Below, piece after piece: positions 33,149 to 43,032 of a DNA stretch of 64,000 nt; within the stretch, counting starts at the first letter, position 1, and each line of letters opens with the position of its first letter. A program made the translations under genes and the position numbers. Source of the DNA: Lachnospiraceae bacterium (lineage in GTDB: Bacteria > Bacillota > Clostridia > Lachnospirales > Lachnospiraceae); NCBI GenBank assembly GCA_029008875.1, contig JAQXJP010000006.1:1-64000 (forward strand), read 5' to 3'. The notes beneath the pieces were generated by a model. It did no database searches. It saw nothing but the letters and a program-made list of their open reading frames with translations, and was not told the origin of the DNA.

Positions 33149-34546
33149 ATGCAGGAATATTTTCTGGCAATTGATATTGGAGCATCCAGTGGGCGACATA
33201 TTTTAGGCTGTTTGAAAAACGGTAGGATAGAATTGGAAGAGGTTCATAGATTTCCAAATCGGATGGAAGAAAAAGACGGACATCTTGTTTGGAACGTGGA
33301 TGCTCTTTTTGCAGAAATCATTCTTGGAATGAAAAAATGCAAGGAGATTGGAAAAGTACCATGTAGTGTGGGAATTGATACATGGGGCGTGGATTTTGTA
33401 CTTTTGGATAAAGAGGATAAGCGCATAGGGGATGCAATTGCATATCGGGATTCGCGAACCGTGGGCATGGATAAGCTGGTTTATCAAGCTATATCAGAAG
33501 ATACTTTGTATATCAGAACCGGAATCCAGAAGCAAATTTTTAATACGATTTATCAATTGATGGCGGTGAAGGAACAAAATCCCAATCAATTGCAGGAAGC
33601 AAAAACTATGCTTATGATTCCAGACTACTTCCATTTCCGTTTGACCGGAAAGAAAGTACAGGAATATACCAATGCAACCACAACACAACTTGTAAACCCG
33701 GAGAGAAAGAACTGGGATTATGAATTAATTGAAAGATTAGGATATCCAAGTGAAATTTTCGGGGAAATTACAAAGCCGGGAACGTATATCGGAAATCTGG
33801 CAAAAGATATTCAAATGAAAGTGGGATATGATTGCAGAGTGGTATTGCCGGCAACCCATGACACGGCATCGGCAGTTATGGCAGTCCCAAGCAATAAAAA
33901 AAATACCTTATATATAAGCTCCGGCACCTGGTCATTAATCGGAACAGAAAGGATGGAGGCAGATTGCAGAAGAGGCAGTATGCGTCATAACTTTACCAAT
34001 GAAGGGGGATACGATTATCGCTTCCGTTATTTGAAAAACATTATGGGGCTTTGGATGATTCAATCCGTGAAAAAGGAACTTGCGCCGGAAATGAACTTTG
34101 GAGAAATTTGCAAGCTCGCAGCTTCCTGTAAGATGTCGTCTTTGGTGGACGTAAACGATCAACGCTTTTTGGCACCTGCAAGTATGGTAAAAGAGATTCA
34201 ACTTGCTTGCAAAGAAACTGGCGAGGAAGTCCCACAAACTATAGAAGAAATTGCTGCTGTGGTCTATAACAGTTTGGCGGTTTGCTATTCGCAGGCGGTG
34301 AAAGAAATAGAGACACTGACCGGCAATATATACAATAGCATTCATATTGTTGGAGGCGGAGCAAACGCGAAGTATCTTAATGAGCAAACAGCAAAAAAAG
34401 CAGAGCGAACAGTATATGCAGGGCCAACAGAAGCAACGGCAATCGGAAATTTGCTGGCGCAAATGATTGCTGCCGGAAAAATAAAAAATTTACAGGATGC
34501 CAGAGATTGTGTATTCGATTCATTTGAAATTCAAGTTTATAAATAA
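33149..34546 (+). CDS. rhaB: Rhamnulokinase
   Basis: It phosphorylates L-rhamnulose to L-rhamnulose-1-phosphate with ATP. The 465-residue FGGY-family kinase opens with FLAIDIGASSGRHILG, the phosphate loop. It has SVGIDTWGVDFVLLD, the catalytic region PATHDTASAV and the ATP-binding YISSGTWSLIGTE. The combination of DIGASSGR, DTWGVDF and HDTASAV distinguishes RhaB from xylulokinase and fuculokinase. It is followed by rhaA after 11 bases, with AAGGAGGAG. Confidence 0.96.
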   Translation: MQEYFLAIDIGASSGRHILGCLKNGRIELEEVHRFPNRMEEKDGHLVWNVDALFAEIILGMKKCKEIGKVPCSVGIDTWGVDFVLLDKEDKRIGDAIAYRDSRTVGMDKLVYQAISEDTLYIRTGIQKQIFNTIYQLMAVKEQNPNQLQEAKTMLMIPDYFHFRLTGKKVQEYTNATTTQLVNPERKNWDYELIERLGYPSEIFGEITKPGTYIGNLAKDIQMKVGYDCRVVLPATHDTASAVMAVPSNKKNTLYISSGTWSLIGTERMEADCRRGSMRHNFTNEGGYDYRFRYLKNIMGLWMIQSVKKELAPEMNFGEICKLAASCKMSSLVDVNDQRFLAPASMVKEIQLACKETGEEVPQTIEEIAAVVYNSLAVCYSQAVKEIETLTGNIYNSIHIVGGGANAKYLNEQTAKKAERTVYAGPTEATAIGNLLAQMIAAGKIKNLQDARDCVFDSFEIQVYK

Positions 34547-34557
34547 GGAGGAGAACA

Positions 34558-35817
34558 ATGACACAGCGTGAAAGATATGAAGACGCAAAAGATAGATATG
34601 CGCAGGTAGGGATTGATACCGAAGCAATCCTTTCACAAATAGGAAAAATTCCGATTTCTTTGCATTGTTGGCAGGGGGATGACGTGATTGGATTCGATAA
34701 TGACGGAGGATTAACTGGAGGAATACAAACAACCGGAAATTATCCTGGGAAAGCAAGAACTCCCGAGGAATTATTTGCGGATATGGAGAAGGTGCTGTCC
34801 CTAATTCCGGGGACCGCCAAAATTAATGTGCATGCCAATTACGCCATCTTTGAAGAGGATGGATTTGTAGACAGAGATAAATTGGAACCCAGACATTTCA
34901 GAAAATGGGTGGAGTTGGCGAAAAAGTATAACATGGGATTGGATTTTAACCCTACCTTTTTTTCTCACGAAAATGCCGCAAGTGGTCTGACGTTGTCCTC
35001 TCCGGATGAGGAAATACGACAGTTTTGGATTGCACATGGAAAGGCTTGCATCCGTATTTCTCAGTATTTTGCACAGGAGACAGGAATGCCATGCGTTATG
35101 AATATTTGGACCGGGGATGGCTTTAAGGACATTCCGGCAGACCGCATGGGACCCCGTATGAGGTATAAGGACTCCATAGAGCAGATCTTGTCAGAGCCAT
35201 ACGACAGGTCTATGGTTAAGCCGTGTATAGAGTCAAAGGTATTCGGAATCGGAGTAGAATCTTACACTGTTGGCTCTGCGGAATTTGCATTAAGCTTTGC
35301 AGCAACACATGAAGGTTGTATGCCACTTATGGACAATGGACATTATCACCCTACTGAGGTGGTTTCCGATAAAATCCCTGCTTTGCTCTGCTTTTATCCG
35401 GAATTTGCATTACATATTACAAGACCTGTGAGATGGGATTCGGATCATGTGGTGTTGTTTGATGACGAGACAAAAGAAATGGCAAAAGAAATTGTGCGCA
35501 ACGATGCTTTGGAGCGTGTATATATGGCGTTAGATTATTTTGATGCCGGTATAAATCGTGTATCCGCATGGGCAACGGGATTCCGCTCTTGGGAAAAAGC
35601 CCTTTTATATGCAATGTGCACACCAAACAAAATGCTTAAAGAACTTCAGGATACCAATCAGTTTTCCAAGCTTATGGTAATGCAGGAAGCTGCCAAGATG
35701 CTACCGCTGGAGGCTGTTTGGGATGAATATCTTGCACGGGAAGGTGTTGTTGGAGATTGGGAATTTTACAACGAGATAGAGGCGTATGAAAAGAACGTTC
35801 TGCTAAAACGAAGCTAG
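34558..35817 (+). CDS. rhaA: L-rhamnose isomerase
   Basis: It converts L-rhamnose to L-rhamnulose with a metal cofactor. The 419-residue length matches the family. Recognisable segments include ISLHCWQGDDVIGFD near residue 35, GGIQTTGNYPG, INVHANYAIF, LDFNPTFFSH and NIWTGDGFKDIPADR, with metal ligands further on in MDNGHYHPTE. AAGGAGGAGAAC precedes the ATG. It sits between rhaB and rhaD, a common order in Firmicutes. Confidence 0.97.
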   Translation: MTQRERYEDAKDRYAQVGIDTEAILSQIGKIPISLHCWQGDDVIGFDNDGGLTGGIQTTGNYPGKARTPEELFADMEKVLSLIPGTAKINVHANYAIFEEDGFVDRDKLEPRHFRKWVELAKKYNMGLDFNPTFFSHENAASGLTLSSPDEEIRQFWIAHGKACIRISQYFAQETGMPCVMNIWTGDGFKDIPADRMGPRMRYKDSIEQILSEPYDRSMVKPCIESKVFGIGVESYTVGSAEFALSFAATHEGCMPLMDNGHYHPTEVVSDKIPALLCFYPEFALHITRPVRWDSDHVVLFDDETKEMAKEIVRNDALERVYMALDYFDAGINRVSAWATGFRSWEKALLYAMCTPNKMLKELQDTNQFSKLMVMQEAAKMLPLEAVWDEYLAREGVVGDWEFYNEIEAYEKNVLLKRS

Positions 35818-35839
35818 AAAGGTAACGGAGGAAAAGAAA

Positions 35840-36661
35840 ATGAGTTTTTTGGATGCAAAATTTGTTCAGGGCTTTATCCGTATGGCCAATGACGGTTGGG
35901 AACAGGGCTGGCACGAGAGAAACGGCGGAAATTTGTCTTATCGAGTAAAGCCCAAGGAAGTAGAAGAAGTTAAAGACTGTATGCAGGCAGGTGAATGGGA
36001 ACCAATTGGTGCGAATGTCCCGGGACTGGCAAAGGAATACTTTTTGGTGACTGGAAGTGGTAAATATTTTCGAAATGTGATCATTAATCCGGAAGATTCT
36101 ATTTGTATGATTGAATTAGACGATAAAGGAGAAAATTATCGCATTGCCTGGGGCCTTGTAAATGGAGGGAGACCTACGTCGGAATTGCCAAGTCACCTCA
36201 TGAACCATGAAGTGAAAAAAAATCAAAATGAAAAGTATCGCGTTATTTATCATGCGCATACGACAAACATTATTGCGCTTACATTTGTTTTGCCGCTTAA
36301 GGATGAGGTATTTACCAGAGAACTATGGGAAATGGCAACAGAATGTCCGGTGGTTTTCCCGGATGGAATTGGGGTTGTTCCGTGGATGGTTCCGGGGGGA
36401 AAAGAAATTGCTGTGGCAACCTCAGAATTGATGAAAAAGTATGACTTGGCAGTATGGGCGCATCATGGGATGTTTGCTGCCGGAGAAGATTTTGATTTAA
36501 CATTCGGACTTATGCATACCGCGGAAAAATCCGCAGAAATTTTGGTAAAAATGCTTTCCATGCAATCAAATAAGTTACAAACTATCACACCAGATAATTT
36601 TAGAGACTTGGCGCGTGATTTTCATGTAACGTTGCCGGAAAGATTTTTATATAAAAAGTAG
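35840..36661 (+). CDS. rhaD: Rhamnulose-1-phosphate aldolase
   Basis: It splits L-rhamnulose-1-phosphate into dihydroxyacetone phosphate and L-lactaldehyde. The 273-residue class II aldolase has the zinc-binding HAHTTNIIAL motif near residue 138, and a third His in WAHHGMFAAG. RPTSELPSHLMNH holds the catalytic Glu. GNLSYRV near the N-terminus is the phosphate-binding loop of the aldolase II family. GTAACGGAGG is upstream. Confidence 0.96.
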   Translation: MSFLDAKFVQGFIRMANDGWEQGWHERNGGNLSYRVKPKEVEEVKDCMQAGEWEPIGANVPGLAKEYFLVTGSGKYFRNVIINPEDSICMIELDDKGENYRIAWGLVNGGRPTSELPSHLMNHEVKKNQNEKYRVIYHAHTTNIIALTFVLPLKDEVFTRELWEMATECPVVFPDGIGVVPWMVPGGKEIAVATSELMKKYDLAVWAHHGMFAAGEDFDLTFGLMHTAEKSAEILVKMLSMQSNKLQTITPDNFRDLARDFHVTLPERFLYKK

Positions 36662-36676
36662 AAGGAGAAGTGAATT

Positions 36677-37825
36677 ATGGCAAACAGATTTGTATTGAAT
36701 GAGACATCTTATCATGGAGTAGGAGCAATTCAGGAAATTGCAGCAGAAACAAAAGGACGCGGATTCAAAAAAGCATTTGTGTGTTCGGATCCTGATTTGG
36801 TTAAGTTTGGCGTTACAAAGAAGGTTTTAGACGTATTGGAGGGCGCGGAAATCGAATATGAATTGTATTCTAACATTAAGCCCAACCCAACCGTTGAGAA
36901 TGTTCAGACAGGGGTAACAGCATTTAAGAAGTCTGGTGCAGATTTCCTGATTGCAATTGGTGGAGGCTCCTCTATGGACACTTCAAAGGCAATCGGAATC
37001 ATCATTGCAAACCCGGAATTTGAGGACGTGGTTAGTTTGGAGGGCGTTGCGCCTACAAAGAATAAGTCGGTTCCGATTTTTGCAGTGCCCACGACGGCCG
37101 GAACAGCTGCTGAAGTAACCATCAATTATGTGATTACAGATGCAAGCCATAACCGTAAAATGGTATGTGTAGATCCCAAAGATATTCCGGTAGTTGCATT
37201 TGTGGATCCGGAAATGATGTACAGCATGCCAAAGGGGCTGACCGCAGCAACAGGAATGGACGCACTCACGCACGCAATTGAGGGGTACATTACTGCGGGA
37301 GCTTGGGAACTTTCCGACATGCTCCATTTGAAGGCAATTGAGATCATCGCAAGATCACTCCGGGCTGCAGTCAACAATGAGCCTAAAGGACGTGAGGATA
37401 TGGCACTGGGACAATATGTGGCAGGAATGGGATTTTCGAACGTGGGACTTGGAATCGTGCATTCTATGGCCCATCCTCTGGGAGCGTTATATGACACTCC
37501 GCATGGAGTTGCAAATGCAATTATTTTGCCAACCGTGATGGAATATAATGCACCGGAAACCGGCGAAAAATATAGAGAAATCGCACGTGCTATGGGTGTA
37601 AAGGGCGTAGATGATATGTCACAAGAGGAATATCGTAAGGCAGCAATTGACGCCGTAAAGAAGTTGTCAAGTGATGTGGGAATTCCGGAGAATCTGAAGG
37701 AAATTGTGAAGGAGGAGGATATTCCATTTCTTGCGCAATCCGCATATGATGATGCATGCAGACCGGGAAATCCTCGTGAGACAAGTGTCGAAGAAATAAC
37801 AAAATTATATCAGTCCTTAATTTAG
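36677..37825 (+). CDS. fucO: Lactaldehyde reductase / iron-containing alcohol dehydrogenase
   Basis: It reduces L-lactaldehyde to L-1,2-propanediol with NADH, closing the redox balance of anaerobic rhamnose use. The 382-residue group III alcohol dehydrogenase has the NAD-binding IGGGSSMDTSKAIG near residue 96, and the iron-site segments GMDALTHAIEGY and SMAHPLGALYDTPHG. The start resembles FucO (ANRFVLNETSYHG). It is the last gene of the operon and is followed by a terminator. No microcompartment genes for further propanediol use are seen in the window. Confidence 0.95.
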   Translation: MANRFVLNETSYHGVGAIQEIAAETKGRGFKKAFVCSDPDLVKFGVTKKVLDVLEGAEIEYELYSNIKPNPTVENVQTGVTAFKKSGADFLIAIGGGSSMDTSKAIGIIIANPEFEDVVSLEGVAPTKNKSVPIFAVPTTAGTAAEVTINYVITDASHNRKMVCVDPKDIPVVAFVDPEMMYSMPKGLTAATGMDALTHAIEGYITAGAWELSDMLHLKAIEIIARSLRAAVNNEPKGREDMALGQYVAGMGFSNVGLGIVHSMAHPLGALYDTPHGVANAIILPTVMEYNAPETGEKYREIARAMGVKGVDDMSQEEYRKAAIDAVKKLSSDVGIPENLKEIVKEEDIPFLAQSAYDDACRPGNPRETSVEEITKLYQSLI

Positions 37826-39872: not shown

Positions 39873-39912
39873 AACTTCATTTCCACATAAATGTAGCATT
39901 TTTGGAATAAAC

Positions 39913-39971
39913 TTGCAATTTCATAGGAACGTGTTAAAATATATCAATAGAAATGATTAAATTTAATCATT
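39913..39971 (+). promoter_or_regulatory. leuA promoter with a 20-bp palindrome at the transcription start
   Basis: TTGCAA (39913-39918) and TAAAAT (39935-39940) are 16 bases apart, so transcription should begin near 39947. AATGATTAAATTTAATCATT (39952-39971) is a perfect palindrome a few bases downstream, well placed for a repressor. No T-box or peptide-attenuator structure fits the roughly 90-base leader. Confidence 0.6.
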
Positions 39972-40035
39972 CCATGATGAAAGGATATGTGCTAATATCG
40001 TTGGCATATATAGAAGAATACGAGAGGAATTGTGT

Positions 40036-42027
40036 ATGAAAGGCTTTGAGAAATACGAGCGCGCATATTTTATGCCGCCGGAATGTACTTATGATTGGGT
40101 GAAGAAGGACTATGTGGACAAGGCGCCATACTGGGTGTCCGTGGATTTGAGAGACGGAAACCAGGCCTTGATTGAGCCCATGAGCTTGGAGGAGAAACTG
40201 GAATTTTTCCAGATGTTGGTGGATATCGGATTTAAGAAGATTGAGGTGGGATTTCCGGCAGCATCGGAGACAGAATATAATTTTACCCGGGCGTTGATTG
40301 AGCGGAATATGATTCCGGATGATGTGACCATTCATGTGCTGACCCAGGCGAGAGAGCATATTATTCGCAGAACCTTTGAGGCTCTGCAGGGAGCACCGCG
40401 AGCTGTTGTACATCTGTACAATTCCACTTCCGTTGCCCAGAGGGAGCAGGTGTTCCGCAAGAGCAAAGAGGAAGTGAAACAGATTGCAATCGACGGAGCC
40501 AAACTGTTGAAGGATCTTGCGGCGGAGACCGAGGGTAACTTCACATTCCAGTACAGCCCGGAGAGTTTCCCGGGAACCGAGGTGGATTATGCGGTGGAGG
40601 TGTGCAATGCGGTTCTTGACGTATGGCAGCCCACGGCGGAACATCAGGTAATTATCAATATCCCCACCACGGTGGAAAATGCCATGCCCCATGTTTTTGC
40701 CACCCAGGTGGAATACATCAACAAGCATTTGAAATATCGAGAGGGCGTGATTCTCTGCCTGCACCCGCACAACGACAGGGGCTGCGGTGTCAGCGACGCG
40801 GAGCTGGGCCTTTTGGCGGGAGCGGACCAGATAGAGGGAACCCTGTTTGGAAACGGTGAGAGAACCGGAAATGTGGACATCGTCACCCTGGCAATGAATA
40901 TGTTCTCCCACGGGGTGGATCCCCAACTTGATTTTTCCAATATGCCGAAGATTCGGGAGACCTATGAGCGCCTGACCAGAATGCATGTGCATGAGCGCTC
41001 TCCGTATGCAGGAGATTTGGTGTTCTCTGCATTTTCCGGATCCCACCAGGATGCCATTGCAAAAGGAATGGCATGGCGGGAGGAGAAAAAATCCGATATG
41101 TGGACCGTGCCCTATCTTCCCATTGATCCCAAGGATGTGGGCAGAACCTACGAGGCGGATGTCATCCGAATCAACAGTCAGTCCGGCAAGGGCGGTGTGG
41201 CATATATCCTCAAGCAGAATTTCGGCGTTGTAGTGCCGGATAAGATGCGGGAGCAGGTGGGCTATATGATCAAGCAGGTGTCCGACGAGGAGCACAAGGA
41301 GTTGTCTCCTCAGTGGATTTATGAGATTTTCGAGGACAATTATGTGAATCATAATCCATACTTCCAGATTCCGGAATGTCACTTCAAGCAGGTGGAGGGA
41401 ATCTTTGCGGAGGTGACCATTGCCCAGGGAGAGCAGGAGCGCGTGGTAAATTCCAACGGTAACGGACGTCTGGATGCGGTGAGCAACGCCATCAAGCAGT
41501 ACTTCGATGTGAGCTACGAACTGTCTGTATACGAGGAGCATGCCCTGTCCCACGGCTCATCCTCCAAGGCTATGGCATATGTGGGATTGACCTATCAGGA
41601 CAAGATGTATTGGGGCGTGGGAATGAACGAGGATATCATTCTGGCATCCGTCCATGCGCTGGTGGTCGCAGTCAACAGATTGTTGGATGTGCGCAAGAGC
41701 GAGACAGTTCAGGATGAAAAACTGATTGCCATGCAGAATTACATTCAGGCGAATTATCAGACGGTTACCTTGGCTGACATGGCGAGAGAATTCCATCTGT
41801 CAGAGCCGTATATCTCCAAATATATCAAAGAGAAATCCGGCAAGAACTTCGGGGAATTGGTGGAGAATGCTAAGATGAAAAAGGCGAGAACATTGCTTCG
41901 CAACAGCAACATGACCGTGGAGAGTATCGCCTATGTGGCGGGGTATCAGAATGTGGAGCACTTTACCCGCCAATTTAAGAAGAAATATGAGATGACTCCT
42001 ACGGAATATCGGAATCAACAGAAATAA
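40036..42027 (+). CDS. leuA: 2-isopropylmalate synthase fused to a C-terminal AraC-type DNA-binding domain
   Basis: The first 555 residues are a complete LeuA of the long (actinobacterial-like) class. They have the DRE-TIM barrel with [30 protein letters not shown] and GNGERTGN, then the leucine-binding regulatory domain (about 430-550) with [15 protein letters not shown]. The enzyme joins acetyl-CoA and 2-oxoisovalerate, the committed step to leucine. Residues about 558-660 are a typical AraC double helix-turn-helix ([46 protein letters not shown]). The reading frame is continuous, with no stop or frameshift at the junction. The ATG at 40036, with GAGAGGA upstream, was preferred over the TTG at 40030. 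No other leu genes adjoin. Confidence 0.93.
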
Positions 42028-42046: not shown

Positions 42047-42085
42047 AGGGGCTACCTACTTTCAACCAGTAGGTAGCCCCTTTTG
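42047..42085 (+). terminator. Terminator after leuA
   Basis: AGGGGCTACCTACT pairs with AGTAGGTAGCCCCT, followed by TTTTG. Confidence 0.9.
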
Positions 42086-42120: not shown

Positions 42121-43032
42121 TTAGTAATTATTGTTGACACGCCCGGTGATAATCCATGGTGCCGGCTGTTGTTTGAATGCATGGTTGGTGCCCAGCCGGG
42201 ATACGGAAACCTGAATGGTGTCAACGGAGGTCATGCCCAGGTCTTCCAGCATCTTTTGCGCATTTGCGGCCACCAGAAAATCCAAGGTGTAGATAACCAC
42301 ATTGAGGTTGGGGTTCAGCTTCTTAAGGCACTGCAGCTCTTGATCCATGCTGGCGGAAGCAACCAGAAATACGGTGTCCGGAACGGCACATTCCCTCATA
42401 GTCTCTTCGCTCACGTGATCAATGATAGTGACATTCTGCAGTCCGAAATGGGACACATTGTCCTCCATGGACGCCCGGTCGGATGCACTGTACTCCACGG
42501 CAATTACGGAGCCCTCCGCCGCGATGAGAGCCGTCTCTATGGCGATGCTCTCACCGCCGATGACGCAGACATTATCCTGGGAATCTACCAACATCTTATT
42601 GAGCAGGATGGCGCGGATTTCACTCCCCACATAGTGGATGGAACTCTTTTGGAACATATCATTATCCAATCCGATTTTGGCAGTGTTGCGGGCGTTGGGG
42701 TTTAGTATCAGCATCCCTGCGGAAGCATTGATTCCCCGGTTGATCATTTCCTTGACAAAATTGTGAAGGATGGGGCCATCCGGGTCGGACCCTTCGTTGT
42801 ACCATACTTCGCATTCCCCCAGACCTGCATTCCAGAGACGGTAGAAGATGTCATCCACACCGGCGTTTGTAAATACCATGGTAGTCTTGTGGGCTTCCAC
42901 GGTGGGGATGATATTCTTATTCTTTTTGGTGATGTCGATGATTTTTACATGCTCCAGATCCAAGGTGGTGTTTTTCGCATAGTACTGGAGCCAGGATAGA
43001 ATGACCTCATTGGTAAAAAGTTGTTTATCCAT
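42121..43032 (-). CDS. CbiE/CbiT (CobL)-like protein outside a cobalamin cluster
   Basis: The 303-residue protein has a C-terminal half resembling CbiT precorrin methyltransferase: VGSEIRAILLNKMLVD followed by the SAM-site strand VCVIGGESIAIETALIAA and a strand-2 acidic residue in VIAVEYS. The glycine-rich loop is changed (GGESIA where CbiT has GAGTG). The N-terminal half vaguely resembles CbiE. There is no cobalamin pathway gene nearby. It is the last gene of an operon with a chemoreceptor and a binding protein, 15 bases from the former. A role in modifying or tuning the receptor is speculation; loss of methyltransferase activity is also possible. Confidence 0.6.
   Translation of the reverse strand: MDKQLFTNEVILSWLQYYAKNTTLDLEHVKIIDITKKNKNIIPTVEAHKTTMVFTNAGVDDIFYRLWNAGLGECEVWYNEGSDPDGPILHNFVKEMINRGINASAGMLILNPNARNTAKIGLDNDMFQKSSIHYVGSEIRAILLNKMLVDSQDNVCVIGGESIAIETALIAAEGSVIAVEYSASDRASMEDNVSHFGLQNVTIIDHVSEETMRECAVPDTVFLVASASMDQELQCLKKLNPNLNVVIYTLDFLVAANAQKMLEDLGMTSVDTIQVSVSRLGTNHAFKQQPAPWIITGRVNNNY

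Follow-up and report, generated by a model that had tools for sequence, protein, structure and literature searches.

Few enzymes double as transcription factors, and the best known of them are repressors. PutA and BirA, for example, are described as enzymes that repress genes of their own pathways (PMC6978683), and in the MocR/GabR regulators an N-terminal winged helix-turn-helix (HTH) is joined to an aminotransferase-like sensor (PMC4944035, PMC6917764). Class II activators of the AraC family bind sites that overlap core promoter elements, with RamA contacting sigma and alpha-CTD (PMC8811837), and AraC-family proteins are noted for direct-repeat sites (PMC9723621). As for LeuA itself, the M. 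tuberculosis enzyme is a homodimer whose leucine pockets lie at the regulatory dimer interface (PMC11057210).

Here we analyse a 64-kb stretch of Lachnospiraceae DNA (the window) in which leuA encodes an enzyme joined to an AraC-type double HTH. We consider it likely, from sequence comparison, that this fused protein, LeuA-HTH, is a 2-isopropylmalate synthase and, at the same time, a transcription factor that regulates its own gene and leucine synthesis, probably as an activator.

A complete LeuA that continues into a double HTH

The first-pass annotation saw a complete LeuA, regulatory domain included, running on in the same frame into a full AraC double HTH, and both the open reading frame and Pfam confirm this anatomy:

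40036..42027, + strand: leuA-HTH coding sequence, 663 aa plus stop; frame open throughout, no break
40126..40959, + strand: catalytic domain (HMGL-like, Pfam), residues 31-308; R39, N42 and E176 invariant in 73 rows
41014..41214, + strand: IPMS_D2 domain (Pfam), residues 327-393; H337 and Y360 invariant in 73 rows
41302..41685, + strand: leucine-binding regulatory/dimerisation domain LeuA_dimer (Pfam), residues 423-550; G475, N476, G477 and R478 invariant in 73 rows
41686..41745, + strand: variable linker, residues 551-570; mean pairwise identity 0.43 (n=62 fused proteins)
41746..42024, + strand: AraC-type double HTH, residues 571-663 (HTH_18 at 582-661), from Pfam and pN/pS

The Pfam match to HTH_18 is complete (profile positions 1-80 of 80, E 9.3e-21) and that to LeuA_dimer spans positions 2-131 of 131 (E 6.1e-24). 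LeuA-HTH scores 805.8 bits against the LeuA subfamily model NF002991, above its cut-off of 455, and at 674.9 just misses the equivalog TIGR00970 (leuA_yeast; cut-off 697.4). By alignment, R39, N42, E176 and Y360 equal R80, N83, E218 and Y410 of M. tuberculosis LeuA, and H337 presumably matches its H379. Together with the other catalytic residues compared and the regulatory G-N-G-R motif, H337 is invariant throughout the 73-row alignment. The four M. tuberculosis residues R80, N83, E218 and Y410 are those named in PMC10464499. On these grounds LeuA-HTH is predicted to be a complete and active LeuA that keeps the residues of both its catalytic and its leucine site. The window's assembly has no other full LeuA match; one further match (27% over 105 residues of the LeuA catalytic domain) was found elsewhere in it.

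Conservation and constraint of the fusion

That an assembly or annotation artefact had merged two genes might be suspected from the draft state of the window's assembly (43 contigs). The fusion is, however, conserved across Lachnospiraceae, the family in which the first-pass annotation proposed to look for it. Full-length fusions (from residue 1-5 to 660 or beyond) occur in 47/60 same-genus genomes, the window's own included, and two further genomes reach the HTH on partial contigs. As to the remainder, partial matches stop ahead of the HTH in two genomes, one has a LeuA without HTH, six have solely an unfused LeuA of ~49% identity and two are without any LeuA among the matches listed. Fused and unfused LeuA occur together in three same-genus genomes (G012, G050, G054). 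In the family, at least 89 of 397 genomes carry the full-length fusion, named carriers including Roseburia porci (Roseburia belongs to Lachnospiraceae), Extibacter muris, Dorea and Faecalicatena, and when 391 genomes of the class were searched, the fusion was found in three that belong to two other families. These genus and family counts, like several others below, are hand counts from listed rows.

Mean pairwise identity among 62 distinct fused proteins is 0.84 for the catalytic domain, 0.69 for LeuA_dimer and 0.68 for the HTH, with the linker at 0.43. Pooled over 12 close pairs, pN/pS is 0.040 for the HTH, 0.041 for the catalytic domain and 0.059 for LeuA_dimer, which is the reverse of the unconstrained HTH residues that had been named as evidence against a functional fusion. 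By this low pN/pS and the domain identities, the HTH is maintained by selection, with a constraint equal to that on the catalytic domain. With full-length fusions in scores of genomes, single-contig ones among them (G015, G034, G052), and with an HTH so strongly constrained, the artefact explanation is refuted to our minds and its residual probability negligible.

Genomic surroundings

In the window the fused leuA lies among sugar genes, a two-component system and leucine-unrelated ORFs, and no leucine genes were found adjoining it; the gene is thus unlinked to other leucine genes, as had been claimed. A sugar cluster (33149-37825: FGGY kinase, L-rhamnose isomerase, an aldolase-like ORF and an iron alcohol dehydrogenase) ends ~2.2 kb ahead of leuA. 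Just after the gene lies a 303-aa ORF (42121-43032, - strand) with no Pfam match at E 0.001, and in between there is:

42047..42081, + strand: intrinsic terminator with a 14-pair stem, the longest stem among three sites in the terminator scan

Three terminator-like sites were found against 2.0 expected in shuffles. Given this terminator, leuA-HTH is probably monocistronic.

As for the rest of the pathway, a leuB-ilvD-ilvB cluster is present besides leuA in the window's assembly, and LeuC was not found there (aconitase only); LeuC is present in 7/7 relatives searched. A candidate second regulator of the leucine pathway is a LysR-type protein whose gene diverges from leuC in four relatives of the genus (L174 3785-4774; L175 12820-13725; L176 10735-11676; L177 3824-4771; identified by NCBIfam in L175 only).

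A palindromic candidate operator upstream of leuA-HTH

Within 300 bases upstream of fused genes the motif ATCA-n7-TGAT occurs in 46/61 regions, compared to 1.7 expected from shuffles. The weight matrix built from these 61 upstreams covers 36 bp and is palindromic with the dyad at position 17; the operator consensus (~36 bp) reads ATTAAAATAAATCAATAAAATTGATTAAATTTAATC. Scoring was confined to the last 700 bases upstream, and among 2420 shuffled upstreams the best scores have their 99.9% point at 11.6 and their maximum at 19.4. All 61 training loci lie above threshold (as expected of training data) and so do 28/33 fused loci fetched after training; the training set includes relatives of these later loci. 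The five below it are L123 (10.9), L125 (6.4), L133 (2.2), L138 (-6.1) and L198 (-26.6); partial sites can be seen by eye in L123, L125 and L133. The window contains:

39933..39968, no strand: palindromic operator, weight-matrix score 42.9, the sole place scoring above 5 in the 64-kb window
39952..39971, no strand: perfect 20-bp inverted repeat that pairs the right arm of the operator with an extra arm

The region 39890-40035, singled out by the first-pass annotation for DNA binding, thus contains a conserved candidate operator. The extra arm of the 20-bp repeat, a possible third half-site, reaches the -35; by eye it is common in loci of this genus and was not seen in the Dorea/Faecalicatena group. 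Searched as a pattern with up to three mismatches, the operator has one match in the window's whole genome, namely before leuA. In 15 relatives of the genus there are 17 pattern matches (hand count), 14 of them leuA-proximal and three strays, with four in the control; three of the 15 have no pattern match.

Operator and HTH occur together

Among all distinct loci with enough upstream sequence the operator is found in 93/98 that bear the HTH and in 0/23 that do not (Fisher p 3e-20 from the plain table, which ignores relatedness of the loci). Counted as HTH-bearing were L077 and L104, whose ORFs are cut by a contig end, and L103 and L114, where the HTH is in another frame. To allow for relatedness, a tree was built on the LeuA part (122 rows, quick method), on which the HTH label needs nine changes; this would fit one gain and several losses. 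Of seven independent pairs taken on branches with good support, a mean of 6.8 show the operator changing in the same direction as the HTH, and none show the opposite (median p 0.0156, range 0.0156-0.0625). From this we infer that the HTH of LeuA binds the candidate operator.

In L103 and L114 the LeuA frame ends ahead of the HTH and the HTH-coding stretch, intact over its length, follows directly in another frame. Both loci retain the operator despite the frame change, which may be a natural break, an assembly break or a sign of two separate proteins.

Could the operator belong to a different AraC-type regulator, with the HTH on LeuA serving, e.g., localisation or oligomerisation? Stand-alone AraC proteins are certainly many in these genomes. 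A separate regulator would not, however, explain the pattern because the operator vanishes together with the HTH: it is missing wherever the HTH is missing, including several apparent losses within the fused group. We therefore regard this option as highly improbable. Binding by LeuA-HTH itself would also suit the symmetry of the site, since a LeuA-like dimer would present its two HTH domains with dyad symmetry, matching the palindrome. Taken together, anatomy and operator fit a bifunctional enzyme/transcription factor, i.e. a trigger enzyme.

Promoter geometry argues for activation

Between operator and start codon the following elements were assigned:

39970..39975, + strand: weak -35 position (TTCCAT), 17 bp before the -10
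39990..39998, + strand: extended -10 (TGCTAATAT), its TG 57 bp from the operator start
40022..40027, + strand: likely ribosome binding site (GAGAGG), by eye

Measured from the operator start over 88 operator-aligned loci, the TG of the extended -10 is at 57 bp in 75, at 56 bp in nine and at 55 bp in two; in the other two it lies elsewhere or was not found. Shuffles place 0.5 loci on average, and at most 2, at 56/57 bp, compared with the 84 observed. The bases separating operator and -10 are poorly conserved in the same 88 loci and the -35 is weak past its first two T. In the window the operator centre sits ~55 bp ahead of the expected transcription start, with the end of the strong operator immediately ahead of the -35. 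That the distance is kept to within 1 bp although the intervening sequence drifts speaks for contact with RNA polymerase and hence for activation, so the geometry of operator and promoter argues for an activator.

A second, weaker operator follows 58-77 bp after the first in 51/73 loci, mostly at offsets of 73/74 (24 loci) or 58/59 (14 loci), with a score reached by 0.14% of shuffles; a matrix scan did not find it in the window. From its place over the -10 or the start region, it could repress.

This bears on the option that the same protein acts through the same operator mainly as an autorepressor, with leucine as co-repressor and leucine-bound LeuA-HTH silencing leuA. Biosynthetic genes are usually repressed by their end product, and the second operator, which in many relatives overlies the -10 or the start region, agrees with this option, as does a promoter-like site at 39913-39940 in the window, whose -10 lies inside the operator. 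Such a promoter would fit repression, yet the number of sites in the consensus scan is within chance (three found, 4.1 expected), and the 88 loci show no conservation of the -35 belonging to this promoter. Moreover, the second operator is absent from the window, the weak -35 is as seen at activated promoters, and an operator placed just upstream of it with its spacing kept to 1 bp would be needless for a repressor. Mainly repressive action therefore seems unlikely to us, and activation remains our preferred reading.

Leucine as the likely signal

Because the leucine-binding domain is intact and adjacent to the HTH, it is plausible that leucine sets DNA binding. Alternatively, the HTH may bind the operator in response to a substrate (2-ketoisovalerate or acetyl-CoA), or constitutively so as to gauge LeuA amount; the weaker second operator would suit the latter, protein-amount control. 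Against such a non-leucine signal stand the intact state and the conservation of the leucine-binding domain directly beside the HTH, as well as the report that, in M. tuberculosis LeuA, a loop at the interface of the regulatory dimer closes when leucine binds (PMC11057210). We rate this alternative as improbable, on a par with mainly repressive action.

With leucine as the signal, we envisage that the LeuA dimer would place its two C-terminal AraC double-HTH domains symmetrically on the ~36 bp palindrome and, once bound, most likely activate its own weak -35/extended -10 promoter via RNA polymerase contact. Leucine in the regulatory domain would most likely inhibit catalysis and weaken activation as well, such that activation occurs at low leucine and is lost on leucine binding. 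In the many relatives with a second operator (not in the window), this site may limit expression when LeuA-HTH is abundant. Finally, in some relatives the protein may control leuCD, leuCDB, leuB-ilvD-ilvB, ilvBN-ilvE or ilvNC in trans.

Operators before other genes

In the window's own genome a regulon was considered and rejected: the only operator at up to three mismatches is that of leuA, and none was found before leuB-ilvD-ilvB (no score above 10, and none above 3 in a later scan). The family scan (397 genomes, up to two mismatches) gave 71 matches in 66 genomes. Sixty of these, in 59 genomes, lie up to 830 bases upstream of an HTH-bearing leuA (as judged from the list of at least 89 carriers), leaving 11 non-leuA matches versus seven control matches. 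Six of the 11 sit in genomes with the fusion, and a looser scan of 16 fused genomes (up to three mismatches) yielded 20 matches, 15 leuA-proximal and five others, with five in the control. The genes at these sites were identified by NCBIfam and Pfam, except for leuB of L212, truncated at a contig end and assigned from its first residues:

L202: operator before ilvB-ilvN-ilvE (fused genome, family scan)
L201: operator before leuB-ilvD-ilvB (fused genome, family scan)
L208: operator before ilvN-ilvC (fused genome, family scan)
L212: operator before leuC-leuD-leuB (fused genome, family scan)
L213, 4369-4404: operator before a nitroreductase-family gene, score 28 (fused genome, family scan)
L214: pattern match inside an ORF, no matrix match (fused genome, family scan)
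L203: operator before leuC-leuD (scan of 16 fused genomes, up to three mismatches)

Four of the six non-leuA matches in fused genomes thus lie before BCAA operons, as does one more from the looser scan. The five matches in genomes without the fusion include none before leucine genes, and their scores are 18.5 (L211), 14.1 (L207), 11.6 (L209) and under 5 (L210 and L215). A -10 hexamer is found at offset 60-61 in the leuB (L201), ilvB (L202) and both leuC promoters, where shuffles give a -10 at such an offset in 1.5-5.7% for each promoter; at ilvN (L208) and the nitroreductase gene (L213) no -10 at the right distance was found. The case for control in trans hence rests on where the non-leuA matches fall, these being hardly more numerous than the control, and chance seems an inadequate account because chance matches would not be expected on four BCAA promoters out of six. 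The nitroreductase site is either an unexpected target or a chance match.

The self-contained circuit considered plausible in the first-pass annotation is strongly supported in one respect: the operator stands at the gene's own promoter when the HTH is present and is absent when it is not. In five relatives, however, it also precedes other leucine/BCAA operons, and there the circuit would not be confined to leuA.

T-box versus protein control

The absence of a T-box leader had likewise been asserted, and an Rfam search of window and contig found none: a tRNA is the sole match over cut-off in the 64 kb, and the ten T-box matches of the window's genome are all on other contigs. Across relatives the T-box motif occurs in 18/23 loci without HTH versus 11/98 with it, and Rfam T-boxes over cut-off in 14/19 loci without HTH (L103 left out) versus 4/20 with it. 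Where a locus has both, the operator precedes the T-box motif (10/10). RNA control thus tends to give way to protein control, or is at times combined with it, a trend that is not significant in independent pairs (T-box loss with HTH gain: 2.3/7 the expected way, 0.4 the other way, median p 0.5).

T-boxes near leuCD in L174 and L177 were considered as leuCD leaders and rejected, as they precede another gene, presumably for a leucyl-tRNA synthetase to judge by its opening residues, and leuCD is divergent from the LysR-type gene. In L109 (2458-2616) and L120 (2645-2808) a Clostridiales-1 RNA (RF01699) lies between the T-box and unfused leuA.

Comparison with known systems

In its widest form, which we advance tentatively and with clearly less confidence than the bifunctional protein itself, our proposal is that throughout a large Clostridia group the committed leucine enzyme may be a leucine-gated transcription factor of its own pathway. 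One dimer would serve catalysis, leucine sensing and activation from an upstream palindrome, with self-limiting repression from a weaker downstream palindrome in many species; it would have replaced, or been stacked on, the T-box, and would have recruited leuCDB and ilv operons in several genera. If true, a single leucine-binding event sets both flux and gene expression, and RNA leader and protein switch appear to replace each other at one gene. It would also give Lachnospiraceae, a family common in the gut in which many members carry a DNA-binding domain on the first leucine enzyme, a concrete predicted leucine-synthesis regulon. Operator, spacing and targets being predicted, a single purified protein and a single fragment of DNA would suffice to test the idea.

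No LeuA-AraC fusion was recognised in searches of full-text literature with little coverage of subscription journals and none of bioRxiv. Like PutA and BirA as they are portrayed, LeuA-HTH would combine in one polypeptide a metabolic enzyme and DNA binding on genes of the same pathway. It differs in being an allosteric, committed-step biosynthetic enzyme of another family and in that its AraC-type domain is predicted to occupy an activator position, whereas PutA and BirA are repressors. With MocR/GabR, as described, it shares an enzyme fold joined to a DNA-binding domain; in LeuA-HTH, however, that domain follows at the C-terminus, and the enzyme retains its catalytic residues in full. The double HTH and a site beside the core promoter are reminiscent of RamA-type class II activators, for which contact with RNA polymerase is known for RamA and, from the similar position, suggested for LeuA-HTH, yet here the sensor is a whole enzyme. 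The palindromic site of LeuA-HTH also departs from the direct repeats given as typical of the AraC family (PMC9723621). A further comparison is with the T-box leuA of relatives without HTH, an orthologous gene controlled by an RNA leader rather than by a protein switch.
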